From: a virus
IMG/VR virus record: IMGVR_UViG_3300027969_000191
Span: 1 to 40,752 of that record
Length of the DNA stretch: 40,752 bases
Strand: one strand, 5' to 3'
The notes beneath the pieces are model-generated. The model worked only from the letters and a program-made list of their open reading frames with translations, did no database searches and was not told the DNA's origin. Below are positions 2,396 through 32,513 of this stretch, piece after piece (positions within the stretch are counted from its first letter, which is position 1; the number at the start of each line of letters is the position of its first letter). A program made the translations under genes and the position numbers.

Positions 2396-3505
2396 TTATC
2401 TTTTTTTCAATTCATCAACTTCAGATTTTAATTCTTTGATGGCTTCTATTAATAATGGTATTAATTTTTCATAATGAACAGTTAAATATTGATTATCAAT
2501 TGGTGCAGGTACAACAACTTCAGGTAAAACTTTTTGTACCTGTTGTGCAGAAACTCCAACTTCTTTTTTTACAGTATAACCTAAATCTTGTGCAGTTTGA
2601 TTGGCTTCATAGTAAAAACCAGTTAAGGTTACTAATTTATCTAATGCATTTTCAATATTACCAAGTTTTGTTTTTAATCTATCATCAGAATAGTATGCTG
2701 TAATAGCATTTGTTGCTAAAATTTCACCAGTTGTTGCTGAAGCAGCTGTTCCAACACCAAGTGATGTAAACTGTGGTGTACCTGTTGTTCCTAATCTTGC
2801 CGATGCTAATGTACCTGAAGTAATATTATCAGCATTAGTAGTATTGGTAGTTGCAGAAGCAGCTAATCCTGTAATTAGACTAGATGGTATAGAACCAACA
2901 GTTAAAGTTCCAATTCCTGTTATACCTGTGTATGAACCTGATATTCTGGCAGAAGGTAGTGTACCTGAACTAATGTTGGATGCACTAGTTGTGTCTGTGG
3001 TAGCTGATGTTGCTAAGCCTGTGATTAAACTTGTTGGTATAGAACCAACAGTTAAAGTTCCAATTCCTGTTATACCTGTATAAGAACCAGATAAACGACC
3101 ACCAGGTAAAGTACCTCCTGAAATATTTCCTGCTTGAGTAGTATCAGTAGTTGCTGATGAAGCTAATCCTGTAATTAAACTTGTTGGCACAGAACCTACT
3201 GTTAAAGTTCCAATTCCTGTTATACCTGTATATGAACCTGATAAACGACCAGAAGGTAAAGTGCCTGAAGAAATATTGGCAGCACTTGTTGTATCAGTAG
3301 TTGCTGATGTGGCTAATCCAGTAATACTTGTAGATGCAAATGTTCCTGTAACTTGTGTGGATGCAATACTTGGAGTTGCATTAGCAGCATAAGTGACTCT
3401 ACCTTGTGCATCTACTGTAACAACAGAATGTTGAGTTGTGCCTCCATAAGTACCTGCCGATACTGCGGTATTTGCTAATACAAACGAAGATACTCTTGTA
3501 CTCAT
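2396..3505 (-). CDS. Tail fibre with C-terminal S74 self-cleaving chaperone domain
   Basis: 369 residues. Residues ~15-45 carry the AGTYGGTT..SVVTVDAQGRVT motif shared with the fibre at the left edge. Residues ~60-245 are about four tandem copies of a 50-residue unit (SLITGLATSATTD...SGTLPSARISGSYTGITGIG). The last ~97 residues form a Peptidase_S74 intramolecular chaperone: AYYSDDRLK places Ser273 and Lys278 at the spacing of the Ser-Lys dyad of endosialidase-type chaperones, and a C-terminal helix (ELKSEVDELKKR) follows. By family knowledge the domain trimerises the fibre and then cuts itself off just before Ser273, leaving a mature fibre of about 272 residues. It starts 16 bases after the upstream collar-fibre stop with ribosome site AAGGAAA. 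Probable receptor-contacting or adaptor fibre. Confidence 0.85.
   Translation of the reverse strand: MSTRVSSFVLANTAVSAGTYGGTTQHSVVTVDAQGRVTYAANATPSIASTQVTGTFASTSITGLATSATTDTTSAANISSGTLPSGRLSGSYTGITGIGTLTVGSVPTSLITGLASSATTDTTQAGNISGGTLPGGRLSGSYTGITGIGTLTVGSIPTSLITGLATSATTDTTSASNISSGTLPSARISGSYTGITGIGTLTVGSIPSSLITGLAASATTNTTNADNITSGTLASARLGTTGTPQFTSLGVGTAASATTGEILATNAITAYYSDDRLKTKLGNIENALDKLVTLTGFYYEANQTAQDLGYTVKKEVGVSAQQVQKVLPEVVVPAPIDNQYLTVHYEKLIPLLIEAIKELKSEVDELKKR
2770..3328 (-). repeat. 150-bp in-frame repeats in S74 fibre (about 4 copies)
   Basis: About four tandem 50-codon units with core TGLATSATTDTT and SGSYTGITGIGTL; the fourth diverges after SGTLASARLG. The same unit recurs in the neighbouring 1358-residue protein (4085-4630). 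This is coding repetition in a fibre shaft. Confidence 0.9.
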
Positions 3506-3520
3506 TTATTATTTCCTTAA

Positions 3521-6500
3521 TTAAGCCGTTCTGTTCCACATATAAACTACGATGTACGGTGGTAAGTTTGCGTTTGTTCCTGATTCACCATTTGATGCAG
3601 TATTACCATTGACTGTATGTGTATGGTCTACATCACCACCACCTGTAGCTCCAGAAAAATCATGTGTGTGAGCAGAACTAGTACCAGCAGTTCGGTCAGA
3701 TGCTTGTATGTATGGTGAAAAAGCACCTCCCTCATTTTGGTAACCAGTCGTATAATTACCCCCTGTCGGATCGCTTACATTACCAATTAAATAATTACCA
3801 GTAAATGGAGGGCCATGGTGGTGATCCGAATTGTTGTTGCCTGTAGTATTACTATAGTAATGACTATGACCAATACTTTGCCCACTTGTCGTAATAGATA
3901 CTGTATGGTTGTGACTCACGACAATAGCATCAGCAGTACCACCAGTAGCACCAGCAGTAAATCCACCACCATTACCAATTAATACTCGCCCAGCACCAAA
4001 GGCTACCCATGTACCAAAACCAAACAATGTATTTGGATTTGTAGATACAGTTGATATGTATATTGAACCAATAGGATACAGATAAGATATTCGTCCTGCA
4101 GGTAAAGTACCTGAAGTAATATTATCAGCATTAGTAGTATTCGTAGTTGCTGATGTTGCAAGACCTGTAATTAAACTTGTTGGTATAGAACCAGCTGATA
4201 AAGTACCTACTCCAGTAATACCTGTATAAGAACCGGATATTCTAGCAGAAGGTAAAGTACCTGAAGTAATATTAGTTGCACTTGTTGTATCAGTAGTTGC
4301 AGAAGTGGCTAATCCAGTAATTAAACTTGTTGGTATAGAACCAGCACTTAATGTTCCTACTCCAGTTACACCACTATATGTTCCAGTTAAACGAGCATTA
4401 GGTAATGTGCCTGAGGTAATATTACTAGCATTTGTTGCATCTGTTGTTGCTGAAGTTGCTAAGCCTGTGATTAAACTTGTTGGTATAGAACCAGCACTTA
4501 ATGTTCCTACCCCTGTTATGCCTGTATAAGAACCTGATATTCTAGCAGAAGGTAGTGTGCCTGATGAAATGTTGGCAGCATTAGTAGTATCTGTTGTAGC
4601 TGATGTGGCTAATCCAGTTACCTTACTGTTAGCGAGTGCAGTAATCCAACTTGGATTAGAATATGAACCACTAGTAACTACACCGTTTGTTACTGTGCCT
4701 GCATTACCTGTTACACTTGCAGTAAATGTATAACCTGCATTAGCAGTAGCACCAACAAATGCTGTTGTTGCAATTTGTGTATTACTTGTACCTGTTGTAG
4801 GTGTAGGTGAAGTTGTAACACCAGTAAATGCGGCACCAACAAGTGCAGCTTTTCTACTTTCAAGAGAATCAATTGCTAATTGAATAGTGTTTGCAGTACC
4901 TGGAATAGAACCTGTTACAGGACCATAAGCAATGTTATTTGCATAATATGGATTTACATAATAACCATCAACTTCAAATAATATTGAAGTGCCTGTAGGA
5001 GGAGCGGCACTAAATGTAACAATACCTACACCGCCTGTATTACCACTTGTTTCTGTATATTCTCCAAACTGTCTTACACCGTCAATATAGACTCTTACTT
5101 GTGAAGCACCAGGAGTGTACACACCCGTTGAATATGCAAGACCTGAACCATTTCCTGAGTAGGAGGTTCGTGTTGAACTAATTGCAGTACCTGGTGTTGC
5201 ACCACCACCGCCAGTACCACCACCAGCAGCCCAATAGAAACTACCTGGACCACCTGTTGTCAATACATAACCAGCAGTTGTACCTGTTGGTAATAAAGCA
5301 GTTAGAGCAGAACCAGATGATGAAGCACCCGTACCACCTTGTGCGATTGCAAGTGGTGTTGTTAATGAAAGTCCAGCAAATGTTGGACTTGCAGATGTTC
5401 TTAAATCTTGTGGTGTATTAATAGTTAATGTAGAAGTAGAACCAGTTATTGTAATACCATTGGTACTTGAATATGTTATGACACCTGCTGGACTAGTTGG
5501 TGCAGCTGTACCTGTAGTTCCGACAAATGATTGTGATGAACTATTGGCACGGGTAAACGCAGCCGCTGTATAAGTAGCATCGGCATTAACTATACCATCA
5601 ACATACGATTTAAGGTTTGTATTTGCGGTATCTGTGTATGCTTTGGCAGTAACAAGATTAGCAGCAATTTGTGCATTAGTATAAAGAATGTTATTATTGT
5701 TTGCAGTAACTATACTATCTTGTGTTGTTTTAACAGCTGCTGAAGTTGCTACAGAAGTTGAACTTGTTGATGAAACAGAATCACTTAAATATTCATTAGT
5801 TAAAACTCTATAATAAGTTCCTGATAAATTATTAGCAGTTACATCCCAATATTTGTTTGTTTCATTCCAACGAACATAAGCATTTGCTGCTAAACCTGGA
5901 CCAGTAGTTCTATACACACCAAGACCCGGTGTTGCTATTACTGCTGGATTTGGAGTATTAACACTTAAAACAATAGTTGGTGAATTATAAATTGTGTTAC
6001 CATTAATTGTAAAATCACCAGAAACACTTAAATTGGTTGCAGTTATTAATGGTGATTGTATAGATGTATTGGCAACAATATCTTTAGCATAAGCCGAACC
6101 GCCAACCAATAATGTTTGAGTATTAACAGTCGCTGTATTAACTCTTGTATTAGCCTGAGTTATATCCATAAAACCTGTACCACTTACAGATAGAGTAACA
6201 GTATTTACATTTGTGTTGGCTTGTAAAGTAGTAGTATAAGCTGTATTGGTTACAAATGACGTAGAAGTATTTGTTGAAGAATTAGCTTGTAATCTATCAG
6301 TATGGGTTAAACCAGTAACAGATAATGTTCTGGTGTTAGCAGATGTATTTGCTTGTAAAGTATCAGTAGACGTAACACCAGTTACACTCATAGTTCTAGT
6401 GTTAGCAGATGTATTGGCTTGTAAAATGTCGGTAGAAGTTACACCAGTAACAGATAATGTTCTGGTATTGGCTGATGTATTGGCTTGTAAAACATCAGTT

Positions 6501-26941: not shown

Positions 26942-27538
26942 ATGGCATCTAAACTTACACAACTAGCAAAACAAAAAACTGCAGCTCAGCTACAGACGAT
27001 GGGTCGTGAATCTATCAAATGGTTAGGTAAAAAGATTTCCAATTTAAGTAATCCTTATGGAATTGCATCAACAGTTAATAGGGAACAATTTAGAACAAAG
27101 AATAGGTTTCATGTTGGTGGGTTATATTACTTCTATTATGACCCTAAAACAAAAAATGACTTACCATATTACGATAGATTCCCTTTGGTATTGGTATTAG
27201 ACATCCAACCAGATGGTTTTAGTGGTTTAAATCTACATTACTTGCCAATCCAATACAGAGTGGCATTTATGGACAAATTGATGGATTACGCCTCCCTTGA
27301 TAAGAATCATGACATAAAGCGTATGAGTGTCAGCTATGACATTCTATCGTCCTCCAGGCGGTTTAAAGAGTTTAAACCGTGTTTTAAGAGATACTTGAAC
27401 GGGTATGTTCAGTCAAAGATACTTGCCGTTCAACCAAACGAATGGGATATTGCGGTATTCTTGCCAATTCAACAGTTTAAAAAGGCACCTGTAACTGAGG
27501 TGTGGCAAGATTCCGAAAACCAAATAAGGAAACACTAA
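26942..27538 (+). CDS. Probable DNA end protector-like (gp2-like) virion protein
   Basis: 198 residues with the motif VGGLYYFYYDPKTKNDLPYY followed by DRFPLVLVLD...GFSGLNLHYLP, a strongly conserved pattern in many phage virion proteins. In T4 the gene next to gp4 is gp2 (gene 64), which caps the DNA ends in the head and protects them from RecBCD. Position and pattern support a gp2-like assignment, but T4 gp2 is longer (274 residues) and I cannot align them directly. The C-terminal ~70 residues are basic (SSSRRFKEFKPCFKRYL), compatible with DNA binding. The stop overlaps the next start by one base (TAATG). GATAAATAA just upstream may be a late promoter. Confidence 0.5.
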   Translation: MASKLTQLAKQKTAAQLQTMGRESIKWLGKKISNLSNPYGIASTVNREQFRTKNRFHVGGLYYFYYDPKTKNDLPYYDRFPLVLVLDIQPDGFSGLNLHYLPIQYRVAFMDKLMDYASLDKNHDIKRMSVSYDILSSSRRFKEFKPCFKRYLNGYVQSKILAVQPNEWDIAVFLPIQQFKKAPVTEVWQDSENQIRKH

Positions 27539-28266
27539 TGGCAGGCACAATTAACGAATTTAAATCTAGTTTCTCAAAAGACTTGGCAAGACCGAGCCGA
27601 TTTGATGTAAACATTCCTGTGCCTTTAACTTTGATACCTTATGTTAAAAATGCAAGAAATTTAGTATATCGTTGTGAAAATGCAAGTTTACCAGGTAGAA
27701 CTTTTGGTGGAATGGCTGAACAGAAGATTGGTTCAAACCCTGTTGAAAAATATCCAACACTAACAACATATAATGATTTAGATTTAACTTTTATCGTTGA
27801 TGATGATATGAGTCAGAGAGTTTTCTTTGATGCATGGATGAATTTTATCAATCCAACATACAATTATAATTTTAGATATAAGAGTGATTATGCAACAGCA
27901 ATCACCATTAATCAATATGACGTAACAAATAATGTTTCATATTCAATTAATTTATATGACGCTTATCCTATTTCTATGAATCAATTAGATTTAGATTGGT
28001 CATCTGATGGACACCACAAACTTGTGGTAACTTTTGCATATACTTATTGGCAAAACAATTCGTTACAAGCCTATGGTATGCAACTTGTTGATGCTGGTTT
28101 GTCTTTGGCTGCTGACATGGTTGGTGGTTTAGGTGGTAATGCAATAGGTGCTTTAGGACAACTTGGTAATAGTTTTTTAAACAGTATATCAAATCCGGAT
28201 CCTGATTTACCAAAGTTTGAAAACCATGCAGGAAGCGATTATCAAGCACCAAATGTAGAAGAATGA
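27538..28266 (+). CDS. gp54: Tail tube-like baseplate protein (gp54/gp19 family)
   Basis: I use ATG 27538 (MAGTINEFKSS), preceded by AAGGAAA, giving 242 residues; a longer GTG-started frame from 27502 lies inside the previous gene. Residues ~15-180 follow the tail-tube fold of T4 gp19 and gp54: RPSRFDVNIPVP, CENASLPGRTFG, YNDLDLTFIVDDDMSQRVFF, DAWMNFINP, and ISMNQLDLDWSSDGHHKLVV before TFAYTYW. T4 gp54 ends its tube domain with a very similar segment. The last ~60 residues are Gly/Ala-rich (GGLGGNAIGALGQLGNS), again as in gp54. It probably begins tail-tube polymerisation on top of gp48; a main tube protein is less likely given the extension and neighbours. Confidence 0.75.
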   Translation: MAGTINEFKSSFSKDLARPSRFDVNIPVPLTLIPYVKNARNLVYRCENASLPGRTFGGMAEQKIGSNPVEKYPTLTTYNDLDLTFIVDDDMSQRVFFDAWMNFINPTYNYNFRYKSDYATAITINQYDVTNNVSYSINLYDAYPISMNQLDLDWSSDGHHKLVVTFAYTYWQNNSLQAYGMQLVDAGLSLAADMVGGLGGNAIGALGQLGNSFLNSISNPDPDLPKFENHAGSDYQAPNVEE

Positions 28267-28293: not shown

Positions 28294-29019
28294 ATGGCTT
28301 TACCAAAACTTGATGTGCCGACATATGAAATTGAATTGCCGGTTTCAAAGAAGAAGATTAAATACAGACCGTTTCTTGTTAAAGAACAAAGAAACTTGTT
28401 GATGGCGATTGAATCAAATGAATCTGCCACCATACAACAGAATGTAAAAGATATTCTTTATAATTGTACACTAACAGAAAACATTGATATTGAAAAGTTA
28501 CCTATCATTGATGTGGAATTTTATTTTATTAATCTACGAGCTAAGTCTGTTGGTGAAGTTATAGAAACCAAATACAGATGTAATAACATAGTAGGTGAAA
28601 AAGAATGTAATAATGTTATGGAATCAACTATTAATCTATTAGATTTAAAAGTCCAAACTAAAGAAGATGTTTCTCCAGAAATTAAACTTACAGAAAACAT
28701 CAGTATTAAATTAAAATATCCAGAATTTGGTATTGTTAAAGATTCACTTCAATATGATGATGTAACATCTACCGCTTTTAATATGATTGCTGAGAGTATA
28801 GAATATATTTACGATGGTGAACAGTTCTATTATGGTTCAGAGGCAGAACCAGGTGAAATGATTGAGTTTATTGAAGGTATGAACCAGGAACAGTTTAGTA
28901 AAATTGAAAACTTCTTTAATAACTTACCAAAGTTAAAAGAAACGGTTCATATGAAGTGTGGTAAATGTGGGTTTGAGCATAATATAGATGTAGAAGGCCT
29001 TGAAAATTTTTTCGGCTAA
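28294..29019 (+). CDS. gp26: Baseplate hub/assembly protein gp26-like (0-frame product)
   Basis: 241 residues (T4 gp26 is 208). LPVSKKKIKYRPFLVKEQRN and LLMAIESNE near residues 15-45 are typical of the T4 gp26 family. Four cysteines form a likely zinc site (YRC, KEC near residues 91-101 and MKCGKCGF near 222-228). Ribosome site TATAGGAG is strong. The last sense codons are AAT TTT TTC GGC before TAA, which contain the classic -1 slippery heptamer T TTT TTC in the correct phase. The protein is therefore likely made both as this form and as a longer frameshift product. In T4, gp26 is required for hub formation. Here it sits between the tube protein and two tape-measure-like genes, the usual place of tail assembly chaperones. 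Confidence 0.85.
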   Translation: MALPKLDVPTYEIELPVSKKKIKYRPFLVKEQRNLLMAIESNESATIQQNVKDILYNCTLTENIDIEKLPIIDVEFYFINLRAKSVGEVIETKYRCNNIVGEKECNNVMESTINLLDLKVQTKEDVSPEIKLTENISIKLKYPEFGIVKDSLQYDDVTSTAFNMIAESIEYIYDGEQFYYGSEAEPGEMIEFIEGMNQEQFSKIENFFNNLPKLKETVHMKCGKCGFEHNIDVEGLENFFG

Positions 29020-29201
29020 TATTTCGTCATGATAATTTAAAGAATTACTATAAGACTAACTTTTCATTGATACAACACCATAAGTATAGTCTGTCGGAAC
29101 TTGAGAATATGATGCCTTGGGAAAGGGATATTTACGTTTCCATGTTGATTGCGTATATTGAAGAAGAAAACCAAAAGATACGAGAAAGACAGAAGAAATA
29201 G
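28294..29201 (+). CDS. gp26 -1 frameshift fusion product (about 302 aa)
   Basis: A -1 shift at TTTTTTC (29007-29013) changes the frame at Phe240 and adds 62 residues, read from CGG at 29013 to TAG at 29199-29201. The extension reads RLIFRHDNLKNYYKTNFSLI, QHHKYSLSELENMMPWERDI, YVSMLIAYIEEENQ, KIRERQKK. It has no ATG until its 35th codon, so independent translation of the whole segment is unlikely. The LIQHHKYSL..LENMMPWERDIYV pattern looks like the small proteins found just after gp26 in T4-like phages (gp51 position). A purine-rich AGAAGG (28992-28997) lies 9 bases before the slippery site, a distance at which Shine-Dalgarno-like sequences stimulate -1 shifting in dnaX. I see no strong downstream stem-loop. 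Confidence 0.7.
29007..29013 (+). other. -1 ribosomal frameshift slippery heptamer TTTTTTC
   Basis: The sequence T TTT TTC matches the X XXY YYZ rule in the gp26 frame (codons AAT TTT TTC GGC TAA), six bases from the end-of-frame stop codon's preceding codon. After slipping, the -1 frame is open for 62 codons. Confidence 0.75.
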
Positions 29202-29204
29202 TAA

Positions 29205-31037
29205 ATGGATTACGGTAAAGCCAAAGACATACGAAAACAAGGACTTTCTAGCCTCATTACTGAAAATTTAGTGGGAGGCAAAGGCATTGGTTCGTCTTTT
29301 ACTTCTGCAATTTCAGATAGAACCAAAGCAACATTCACAGGCATCAAAGAATCTTTTGACCCACTCAATATCGCTAAGAAAATGACTGGTGGTTCTAAAC
29401 TAGCACCTGCATTACTTGGTAGAATGATGGGTAGAAAACAGGAAGATATAGAACACTTTTCAGGTAAACCAAAAAAATCAAAAGGATTATTTGGTGGACT
29501 ATTTGGTGGCAAAAGTAATGATAGTCGTGAAATGGCAGAATCATTAGGTTCAATTTATAAAGAACTTCAACGTGCATCCGAAGAAAAAAAATTAGATAAA
29601 CAAGAACAAAAAAATAAAGTTGAAGGTCAAGAGGCTGAAGAACAACGGCGTAATAGTGAAATTATTAAGGCAATAATTGGTACAAGAATAAAATCAACAA
29701 AATCCAATAAAGATAAAATTAAAGAAATAAAACAAACAGAAAAAGAAAAACCTTTTCGTGATGAAAAAGGAAGATTTGCTAAGAAACCAACTGAAAAAGA
29801 GTTTGGTAAAGAACCTACAACTCCTAGTGGGCCAACTGGACCTACAGTACCTACAACTAAAGCACCGGCACCATCAGCACCAACAGCACCACCATCTAGA
29901 GCTCCATCGGCCCCGGCACCATCAGCACCAACAGCACCACCATCTAAACCTCCAACAACACCGGCGCCATCAGCGCCAACAGCACCACCATCTAAACCTC
30001 CATCGGCACCGGCTCCTAGTGCGCCAACAGCACCACCATCTAAACCATCAGTACCAACTGCAACACCACAAGCTCCAACATCAATAATACCAAAACCTGC
30101 TGTATCTACAGGAACTAAAATTGCAGCAGGCACAGCAACCGCATTAAAGGGTCGAGCAGCTCAAGTTGCTGTTGCATTGGGAACTTTAGGTATTACGAGC
30201 AAAGCTGCTATTGGTGCCATAGTAGCCACATCAGCAAAAGAATCTGGCCTTGATCCATTTAAACCTGAAGATGGTGTAAAACCTTGGAAAGCAACATTAG
30301 AAAAAAGAGGTGTTGATTATCTTTATTTGAAATTTCCACAATTAGCCAAAGGTGGTCGTGTTGCAAAACAATTAAATATGCCAGATGGTGTTCCTGCTGA
30401 TTATATTAAACAAATTATGGATAAAGGTGATGAAGCATGGTTTACATTAGTATATCCTGGTGGCGCTGATGCATACAAATACAGAGGCCGAGGCCTTATT
30501 CAGATAACAGGAAAAGGCGTTTACAAATCTGTTGGTGATATTATTGGAATTGACCTTGAAAAAGATCCTGATGCAATAACAAGAGATTTTGATACCGCAG
30601 CAAAAGCGACAGGTGCTTATTTGATGAACTCTTTAGGACGTGGAGATTCTAAAAAAGGTTTGGCTGCTTTAAATGCTTTGTCAGATGAAAAAGAATCTTT
30701 AAAGGTGGTAATAGCCAATGTGGCTAGAGGCTTTGCTGGATCCGATAAAGATAAGATTGACAAAATGTTTGATCCTAGTTCAAATCTTGGCAAAACAACA
30801 GCTTCGCAATTGGAAGCTGCAAGCAAATATTCACAACTAGGTTCAGATGCAGCCTCAGGTAAACAAATAGACCAAGCATCCAAAGAAAACAAAGATTTAA
30901 AACAAACAACTAATGACAAACCAGCACCTAGTGTTGTAAATAATTTAAATGTAGATTCAAAAAATTCTTCTTCATCTAGAGAAAAACCAAAAGAAGAAGA
31001 TGACAGACCAGCTTTCTTAAAGAAAGCCAAAGGATAA
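29205..31037 (+). CDS. Tape-measure/hub-like protein with GH19 muralytic domain
   Basis: 610 residues. Residues 1-85 (AKDIRKQGLSSLITENLVGG, FDPLNIAKKMTGGSKLAPAL, LGRMMGRKQEDIEHF) are paralogous to the start of the next gene. Residues ~105-195 are charged and helical. Residues ~215-290 are a Pro-rich linker of PAPSAPTAPPSKP repeats. Residues ~310-540 form a GH19 lysozyme/chitinase-like domain: KESGLDPF (Glu346 probable catalytic), YKYRGRGLIQITGKGVY (427-440), and VIANVARGF. The tail VVNNLNVDSKNSSSS resembles the end of the neighbour. By family knowledge GH19 phage enzymes cut peptidoglycan. Placement between gp26 and late tail genes, far from lysis genes, suggests a virion-bound enzyme that cuts the wall during DNA entry rather than an endolysin. 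It starts 3 bases after the frameshift stop. Confidence 0.8.
   Translation: MDYGKAKDIRKQGLSSLITENLVGGKGIGSSFTSAISDRTKATFTGIKESFDPLNIAKKMTGGSKLAPALLGRMMGRKQEDIEHFSGKPKKSKGLFGGLFGGKSNDSREMAESLGSIYKELQRASEEKKLDKQEQKNKVEGQEAEEQRRNSEIIKAIIGTRIKSTKSNKDKIKEIKQTEKEKPFRDEKGRFAKKPTEKEFGKEPTTPSGPTGPTVPTTKAPAPSAPTAPPSRAPSAPAPSAPTAPPSKPPTTPAPSAPTAPPSKPPSAPAPSAPTAPPSKPSVPTATPQAPTSIIPKPAVSTGTKIAAGTATALKGRAAQVAVALGTLGITSKAAIGAIVATSAKESGLDPFKPEDGVKPWKATLEKRGVDYLYLKFPQLAKGGRVAKQLNMPDGVPADYIKQIMDKGDEAWFTLVYPGGADAYKYRGRGLIQITGKGVYKSVGDIIGIDLEKDPDAITRDFDTAAKATGAYLMNSLGRGDSKKGLAALNALSDEKESLKVVIANVARGFAGSDKDKIDKMFDPSSNLGKTTASQLEAASKYSQLGSDAASGKQIDQASKENKDLKQTTNDKPAPSVVNNLNVDSKNSSSSREKPKEEDDRPAFLKKAKG
29847..30075 (+). 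repeat. Pro-rich linker repeats (PAPSAPTAPPSKP), 4 copies
   Basis: In-frame repeats of about 16 codons with core APSAPTAPPS connect the helical part to the GH19 domain. Probably a flexible spacer. The repeats explain the long open frames seen on the opposite strand here. Confidence 0.9.
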
Positions 31038-31040
31038 AAA

Positions 31041-32513
31041 ATGGCAAAAATGGGATATCAAGACGCTAAAAAAATAAGAGGTCAATCTCTATCCAGTAGG
31101 ATTACAGACCGTTTAGTTGGCGGAGAAAAGATTAGTTCATCTATTGGAAAATCCATTTCAGAAGGCACTAGAGCAAGAATAACTGGCCTAAAAGAAAAAG
31201 TGGATCCATTGAATATCGCTAAGTTTATGATGGGTGGTTCTAAACTTGGTACTGCACTTGCTGGTAGAATGATGGGTAGAAGTCAAGAAGATATAGAACA
31301 TTTTACTGGTTCAAAGAGTAAAGGAAAAGGTACTGAAACTGCAAGTAAATTAGGTAAAGTTGAAGAAGGTGGTTCTTCATTAGACATATTGCATAAAATT
31401 TATAGTTTATTAAGTGAAAACAATTCATCTGAAAAATTGGCCAGAGAAGAAGAAAATAATATGGCTGAAGGTCGTGAAATGGAAAAGAAAAGAAGGCATG
31501 ATGAATTAATTGCCGCTATCAAAGGTATGGGAGGAAAACAAACTGCAACTGTTGTTGGTAAAGATAAAAAAGAAGAAAGTGGTGGTATGTTTGATAGTAT
31601 TATTGATTTCGTTAAAAAAATGATTGATGACATGAAACAATTCATACAACCAATATTAGATATGTTTACTGGTGAATTAATGAAATCATTACTTAGCTTT
31701 GGTCGTTTTCTTTTGGGTAATCCTGCCGTAATTGCTGCAATCGCTTGGGCAATTGGTATGTATAAAGCAAAAGAATTTTTGGATGATAGTGAATATGGTA
31801 AAAGAATGTCTGAAAATGAAGGTAAATTAGCTCAAAAAGCTTTTAAAGAAAAGAAAACAGATTTTACTCAATTAAAATTATCAAAAGATGATGCTCAAGC
31901 AATATTGGATCAACCAGAAGGTAAAGCAAAAACTAGAGATATTGAATCTTTTGGTGGAATAGAAAGAATACAAGCAATTGCTGCCGGCAAACCTGACCCT
32001 GGCGGAAAAAGTTTACAAAAACCTATTGATAATAATACTCCAACAAACCAAACTGCTGAATTTCAAGAAAAAAAATTATCTGTTATGCCAGAGACAGTTG
32101 AACCTAGGCCAACAGCAGGAGGTTTGAAAGGTGATTCAAAGAAAAAAACTTGGGATGAAAAATATGCTCAAAATTATAATCCTGATGGTACAAAGAAAGT
32201 ACCAACGGCAACTCCTGTAACTGCGCCAGCGGCTGCAGCGGCTGCAACTGCACCAGTACCTGCAGCTCCTGTTTCATCAACACCACCACCGCCCGTTTCA
32301 GCACCAACTAGTGCGCCATTAAATGAAAAGGTAAATGAAAATCAAAATTTAAATTTACCACCTACTCCTAATCCAGCACCAGCAACAACAGTTAATAATA
32401 CAAATGTTTCTAATAACAGTAAGCCACAACAAGCAATAGGTAAAATACCATCAGTTAGAAATACAGAGAAAACATTTTCTGATATGATATTATACTCTAC
32501 CAGAGTTGTATAA
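31041..32513 (+). CDS. Tape-measure/hub-like protein with membrane segment
   Basis: 490 residues. Residues 1-90 (AKKIRGQSLSSRITDRLVGG, VDPLNIAKFMMGGSKLGTAL, AGRMMGRSQEDIEHF) match the start of the preceding gene, and similarity extends to the EGREMEKKRRHDELIAAI region. Residues ~180-215 are amphipathic helix, then a hydrophobic segment at ~217-240 (LLSFGRFLLGNPAVIAAIAW, AIGM) able to span a membrane. A Pro/Ala-rich linker (residues ~395-435) and a C-terminal VNNTNVSNNSKPQ plus SDMILYSTRVV follow. Tape-measure proteins commonly carry such helices and enter the host membrane during infection. The role is inferred from this and from position after gp26; T4 has gp28/gp29 nearby. It starts 3 bases after the GH19 gene and ends at the convergent terminator. 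Confidence 0.75.
   Translation: MAKMGYQDAKKIRGQSLSSRITDRLVGGEKISSSIGKSISEGTRARITGLKEKVDPLNIAKFMMGGSKLGTALAGRMMGRSQEDIEHFTGSKSKGKGTETASKLGKVEEGGSSLDILHKIYSLLSENNSSEKLAREEENNMAEGREMEKKRRHDELIAAIKGMGGKQTATVVGKDKKEESGGMFDSIIDFVKKMIDDMKQFIQPILDMFTGELMKSLLSFGRFLLGNPAVIAAIAWAIGMYKAKEFLDDSEYGKRMSENEGKLAQKAFKEKKTDFTQLKLSKDDAQAILDQPEGKAKTRDIESFGGIERIQAIAAGKPDPGGKSLQKPIDNNTPTNQTAEFQEKKLSVMPETVEPRPTAGGLKGDSKKKTWDEKYAQNYNPDGTKKVPTATPVTAPAAAAAATAPVPAAPVSSTPPPPVSAPTSAPLNEKVNENQNLNLPPTPNPAPATTVNNTNVSNNSKPQQAIGKIPSVRNTEKTFSDMILYSTRVV

Follow-up and report, generated by a model that had tools for sequence, protein, structure and literature searches.

A conserved slippery heptamer and a proposed -1 frameshift from gp26 to a gp51-type extension in an uncultured virus

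Does the gp26 homologue of this uncultured virus give rise to one protein or, by a change of reading frame near its 3' end, to two? The window, by which we mean the whole stretch of 40,752 nucleotides that was analysed (IMG/VR record IMGVR_UViG_3300027969_000191), carries a gp26 gene whose end overlaps an open -1 frame, and an earlier note on this DNA had proposed that a programmed -1 frameshift fuses gp26 to a gp51-type extension. The following features bear on the question:

27538..28266, + strand: tail tube protein (PF23849, PF06841, phrog_45), the ATG at 27538 being its inferred start
28294..29019, + strand: gp26 homologue of 241 aa, the proposed short tail assembly chaperone (TAC-N, lambda gpG-like), assigned from PF12322, phrog_150, an AlphaFold2 model and its N-terminal fold
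28992..28997, + strand: AGAAGG, a weak candidate for a Shine-Dalgarno-like stimulator, nine bases 5' of the heptamer
29007..29013, + strand: U UUU UUC slippery heptamer in zero-frame phase, its six Ts kept in 97 of 97 loci
29013..29201, + strand: -1 frame extension of 62 codons plus stop, corresponding to the gp51 C-terminal domain and, joined to gp26, giving the proposed long form (TAC-NC, gpGT-like); assigned from phrog_634 (E=5.5e-29), a dN/dS of about 0.12 and hhalign to T4-type gp51
29017..29019, + strand: TAA, the zero-frame stop of gp26, terminating the short form
29205..31037, + strand: next gene, with a paralogous N-terminus and a GH19-like stretch

The gp26 gene and its surroundings

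The assignment of gp26 is strong, with a PF12322 (T4_baseplate) match of E=1.1e-58 and 199 bits against a curated cut-off of 24.5, and a further match to phrog_150. Its 3' end reads GAA AAT TTT TTC GGC TAA, in which TTT TTC are zero-frame codons. The reported placing of T TTT TTC in zero-frame phase, three codons 5' of the gp26 stop, is thus correct (29007-29013), and a slip of -1 does open 62 codons, running from 29013 to a TAG that ends at 29201. On its 5' side the -1 frame is closed by a stop lying three codons before the first post-slip codon. The extension was also said to have no usable start before its 35th codon; none of ATG, GTG or TTG indeed occurs in its early part, but downstream of the slip the earliest candidate start is a TTG at codon 19 (29067), and an ATG is first reached at codon 33 (29109).

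The gene order tube protein, gp26, extension and tape-measure-like genes, which the earlier note had likened to that of other phages, holds on its upstream side, where the tube gene directly precedes gp26. On its downstream side, hhalign showed no similarity of gene 29205-31037 or gene 31041-32513 to the T4 tape measure protein gp29. These two genes share an N-terminus (176 aa, 48% identical) and differ in their C-terminal parts.

Several repeats were seen in the window. Gene 29205-31037 has an Ala/Pro-rich repeat in addition to its GH19-like stretch, and at 29861-30046 lies an in-frame 48-bp tandem repeat of 3.9 copies, encoding APSAPTAPPSKPP-type units and with 24/48-bp periods that keep the frame. 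Elsewhere, a 150-bp tandem repeat forms two arrays (2807-3325 and 4100-4618; 3.5 copies and 78% matches each) in neighbouring minus-strand genes, and their closely similar units suggest repeat-rich fibre or adhesin genes.

Conservation of the heptamer and of the -1 frame

We compared the gp26 3' ends of 97 loci, comprising 80 IMG/VR relatives retrieved by a scan with the extension, 16 phage records and the window, which enters the conservation table twice (as L001 and as window). The phage records span cyanophages, one pelagiphage, KVP40 and another vibriophage, Aeromonas PX29 and P19, Sinorhizobium phiM7, Pseudomonas pf16, Stenotrophomonas Yut3, Rhizobium AF3 and Agrobacterium OLIVR5. This comparison, which had been proposed as a check, found the six Ts and the -1 frame conserved in 97/97 loci. 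All six Ts are present in the same phase in each of the 80 IMG/VR relatives, as TTTTTTC in 79 and TTTTTTT in one, and in the 16 phage records the heptamer lies 2-10 codons from the gp26 stop. It is in phase in the window and in every sampled relative other than T4-type phages and Ackermannviridae. Sequence related to the extension was matched in 639 GenBank phage records.

Given the amino acids and the codon usage of each locus, six Ts in all 35 dereplicated loci would be expected with P of about 10^-17, a value that ignores shared ancestry. Taken singly, the evidence is strongest for phages that otherwise prefer TTC and NNC (such as pf16, AF3, phiM7 and OLIVR5), in which the heptamer is kept against the bias; the TTT:TTC ratio elsewhere in gp26 is 1:13 in pf16, 1:12 in AF3 and 3:11 in phiM7.

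The slip site is a T6 run, and an indel introduced there by sequencing or assembly could in principle split one continuous gene. The same frame arrangement is found in 97 independently assembled loci, finished phage genomes included, and we regard this explanation as refuted by the breadth of conservation. It is also very improbable, in our estimate, that the fusion arises from transcriptional rather than ribosomal slippage. The conserved element is a T run, as such a process would use, but the runs on which RNA polymerase slips usually comprise nine or more A or T, whereas here only six Ts are conserved, usually followed by C and in the phase for tandem slippage.

The -1 frame was then assessed for coding signal. 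Over its first 18 codons the entropies at the three codon positions are 0.46, 0.21 and 1.04 bits, and the dN/dS of about 0.12 equals that in the remainder of the extension. The first -1 residue is Arg in 90 of the 97 loci, encoded by all four CGN codons (CGG/CGT/CGC/CGA), while the gp26 residue overlapping this codon varies (G, V, A, E and others). Because the same base changes keep the Arg of the -1 frame but alter the gp26 residue, selection at this point acts on the -1 frame. Judged from these substitution patterns, selection at the protein level acts on the -1 frame from the first codon onward.

Could the extension instead be a separate small gene, gp51, expressed either by reinitiation just past the stop of gp26 or from some weak start within the frame? 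Public records point this way, since P-SSM2, S-PM2, KVP40, phiM7 and others annotate a gp51 or hypothetical gene, and in KVP40, Yut3 and AF3 an ATG in the -1 frame overlaps the gp26 stop (TAATG or TGATG). In these three phages reinitiation at the gp26 stop could add to the yield of the extension. The window and most relatives, however, have no start ahead of the conserved N-terminal part (67 of the 97 loci lack ATG, GTG and TTG between the upstream -1 stop and codon 8 inclusive), and selection on the codons before any start matches that on the remaining ones. A separate gene would also leave unexplained the six invariant Ts, and the retention of the first Arg through synonymous changes speaks against it too; we consider it improbable. 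Annotation of the extension in public Kyanoviridae records is inconsistent, the names ranging from gp51 to hypothetical, with some records leaving it unannotated; the S-WAM1 record (KU686210.1) gives gp26 a late start.

Signals that might stimulate frameshifting were also examined. The AGAAGG had been compared to the dnaX stimulator; its position nine bases upstream is confirmed, but in the window its pairing to the anti-Shine-Dalgarno sequence (-3.3; synonymous mean, -4.8) is weaker than in random synonymous versions and no stronger than synonymous codon choice would give. Over all loci, upstream Shine-Dalgarno-like pairing is weakly enriched (p about 0.002, among sequences that are related). 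Downstream of the heptamer no unusual RNA structure was found, the folding z-scores scattering around zero. An Rfam search around the slip site returned one match, a sub-threshold human scaRNA, which was rejected.

The Ackermannviridae differ at the junction. Vi01, 3M, BX-1, K357 and 18 IMG/VR loci have a related -1 extension and lack the heptamer; in the 18 IMG/VR loci and Vi01 the junction reads ATT TTC AT[TC] TAA. There, a putative slip of one tRNA-Phe, from UUC to UUU, would be sufficient. The gp26 of the Ackermannviridae type (L090, L100, L101, L106, L117-L134) carries a conserved -1 extension across the stop with no XXXYYYZ heptamer, at ATT TTC, GTT TTC/TTT or CTT TTC junctions.

Relation of the extension to T4 gene 51

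The extension had been likened to gp51 by its position in the gene order, and its identity is borne out by the phrog_634 match and by alignment with T4-type gp51. The latter protein has about 250 aa, and PF12322, which is the gp26 family, covers its residues 1-201. When a virtual fusion of gp26 and the extension was aligned with T4-type gp51 using hhalign, the match ran end-to-end across the junction (probability 99.6, E=2.9e-24, 243 columns). By sequence comparison, T4-type gp51 is therefore a gp26 paralogue with the extension fused to it in one frame. The conservation described above and this alignment together support the programmed -1 frameshift proposed at the outset. The earlier note had named, as evidence that would speak against it, homologues encoding the extension as an independent gene; T4-type gene 51 is independent, but it encodes the whole fusion, which also argues against a separate small gene in the window.

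Genes 26 and 51 are adjacent and divergent in T4 and its relatives, and the gp26 of phages with gene 51, when examined for heptamer and extension, had neither. Because gp51 is a fusion and T4-type gp26 lacks both elements, T4 makes a short and a long product from separate genes, whereas in the window one gene very probably yields both. In a phylogenetic tree, the T4-type gp26 sequences form one well-supported group and the gp51 sequences another; the tree leaves the root and the order of events unsettled.

Proposed chaperone role and relation to known systems

Structure prediction offers a view of function. The AlphaFold2 model of gp26 (pLDDT 85.7) was compared with the PDB over residues 1-90 using VIA-align, which gave 3klu (Z 7.2), 3fgx (7.0), 2ob9 (6.4) and 5ir0 (4.8), followed by a next match at 2.5. 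The HK97 tail assembly chaperone 2ob9 superimposes with an r.m.s.d. of 4.6 over 80 aligned residues at its Z of 6.4. By PDB title a tail assembly chaperone is named for 2ob9 only; we take 3klu and 3fgx to belong to the same family. All these Z values are under 8, and the resemblance of the gp26 N-terminal domain to the tail assembly chaperone fold is accordingly of moderate strength. Foldseek alone found nothing significant for the gp26 model, and the chaperone matches appeared only in the second look with VIA-align. The T4-type gp51 model had no PDB match at a Z of 5 or more and did not retrieve the chaperone structures, and profile sequence searches of the PDB with gp26 and gp51 gave only weak, unrelated matches.

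In a review, T4 gp26 and gp51 are listed among the hub assembly chaperones, gp51 being needed for assembly and absent from the particle (PMC3004832), and the record of Acinetobacter phage Abraxas annotates both proteins as tape measure protein assembly chaperones. The suggestion that gp26 and gp51 be recast as tail assembly chaperones gains support from conservation, paralogy and predicted structure. On account of the chaperone-like fold, the T4 listing and the Abraxas annotation, the lambda gpG/gpGT model (PMC5009743) is the best available mechanism, whose steps we infer for the window. A minority of ribosomes would slip one base back on U UUU UUC, both tRNA-Phe re-pairing on UUU UUU; these ribosomes would read past the stop of gp26 and append 62 residues, so that the long form is a gp26-gp51 fusion. 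Of its two parts, gp26 would probably coat the tape measure protein and the extension would probably recruit subunits of the tube or hub, in line with what has been proposed for lambda gpG and gpGT. In T4 itself and in phages close to it, gene 26 would supply the short product and gene 51 the long one as a one-frame fusion. That the locus encodes a short and long chaperone pair of the lambda gpG/gpGT kind, made by -1 frameshifting, is in our judgement highly probable; the occurrence of slippage, its efficiency and the chaperone function are the parts that we infer.

Like lambda gpG/gpGT, and also P2 E/E', the window combines a short ORF, a slippery heptamer near its 3' end, a -1 extension and an upstream tube gene. 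It differs from lambda in its heptamer (U UUU UUC rather than G GGA AAG), in its larger gp26 domain (241 aa, PF12322) and in a downstream gene without demonstrable tape measure identity. With T4 genes 26/51 it shares a short form, gp26, and a long form in which a gp26-like domain carries the extension, but T4 uses two divergent genes and no frameshift site. The tail assembly chaperone locus of the Vandenendeviridae phage Adele likewise shifts by -1 from TAC-N to TAC-NC at a poly-T motif, and its downstream ORF was formerly annotated as a separate gene, as here; it differs in phage family and in its GTTTTT motif (PMC12846349).

A 2016 review held the G-T frameshift to be widely conserved in long-tailed phages, with T4 as an exception (PMC5009743). 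The earlier note knew of no description for T4-type gp26. However, Vladimirov, Gautam and Davidson (Virology 566:9-15, 2022) identified tail assembly chaperone genes in T4-like phages, according to two later papers (PMC10885494, PMC12846349). That study is cited for poly-T slippery sites in T4-like TAC-N genes (PMC12846349) and for some T4-like phages having one short gene and one long fusion gene (PMC10885494). As far as these citations convey its content, it is very probable that the frameshifted arrangement of T4-like phages is already in print, which makes our finding less of a surprise; relative to the phages of that study as cited there, the window represents an uncultured virus from a cyanophage/pelagiphage-like branch.

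What does this arrangement mean for the T4 superfamily? We see about even chances for a joint reading in which frameshifting on U UUU UUC is the old condition and persists in Kyanoviridae, pelagiphages, Schizotequatrovirus, Angelvirus, Ceceduovirus, Pootjesviridae and others, gene 51 is the frozen product of one duplication, and the Ackermannviridae reach the same fusion by shifting at a non-tandem site (AUU UUC in phages of the Kuttervirus type). Most of the content of this reading may already be in published work. If the frameshift is real, hundreds of cyanophage and T4-like records misannotate or omit the extension, and the gp51 "baseplate hub assembly catalyst" would be the tail of a frameshift product and no separate protein. 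It would also account for the requirement of T4 for both gp26 and gp51, and for the paralogy of the two.
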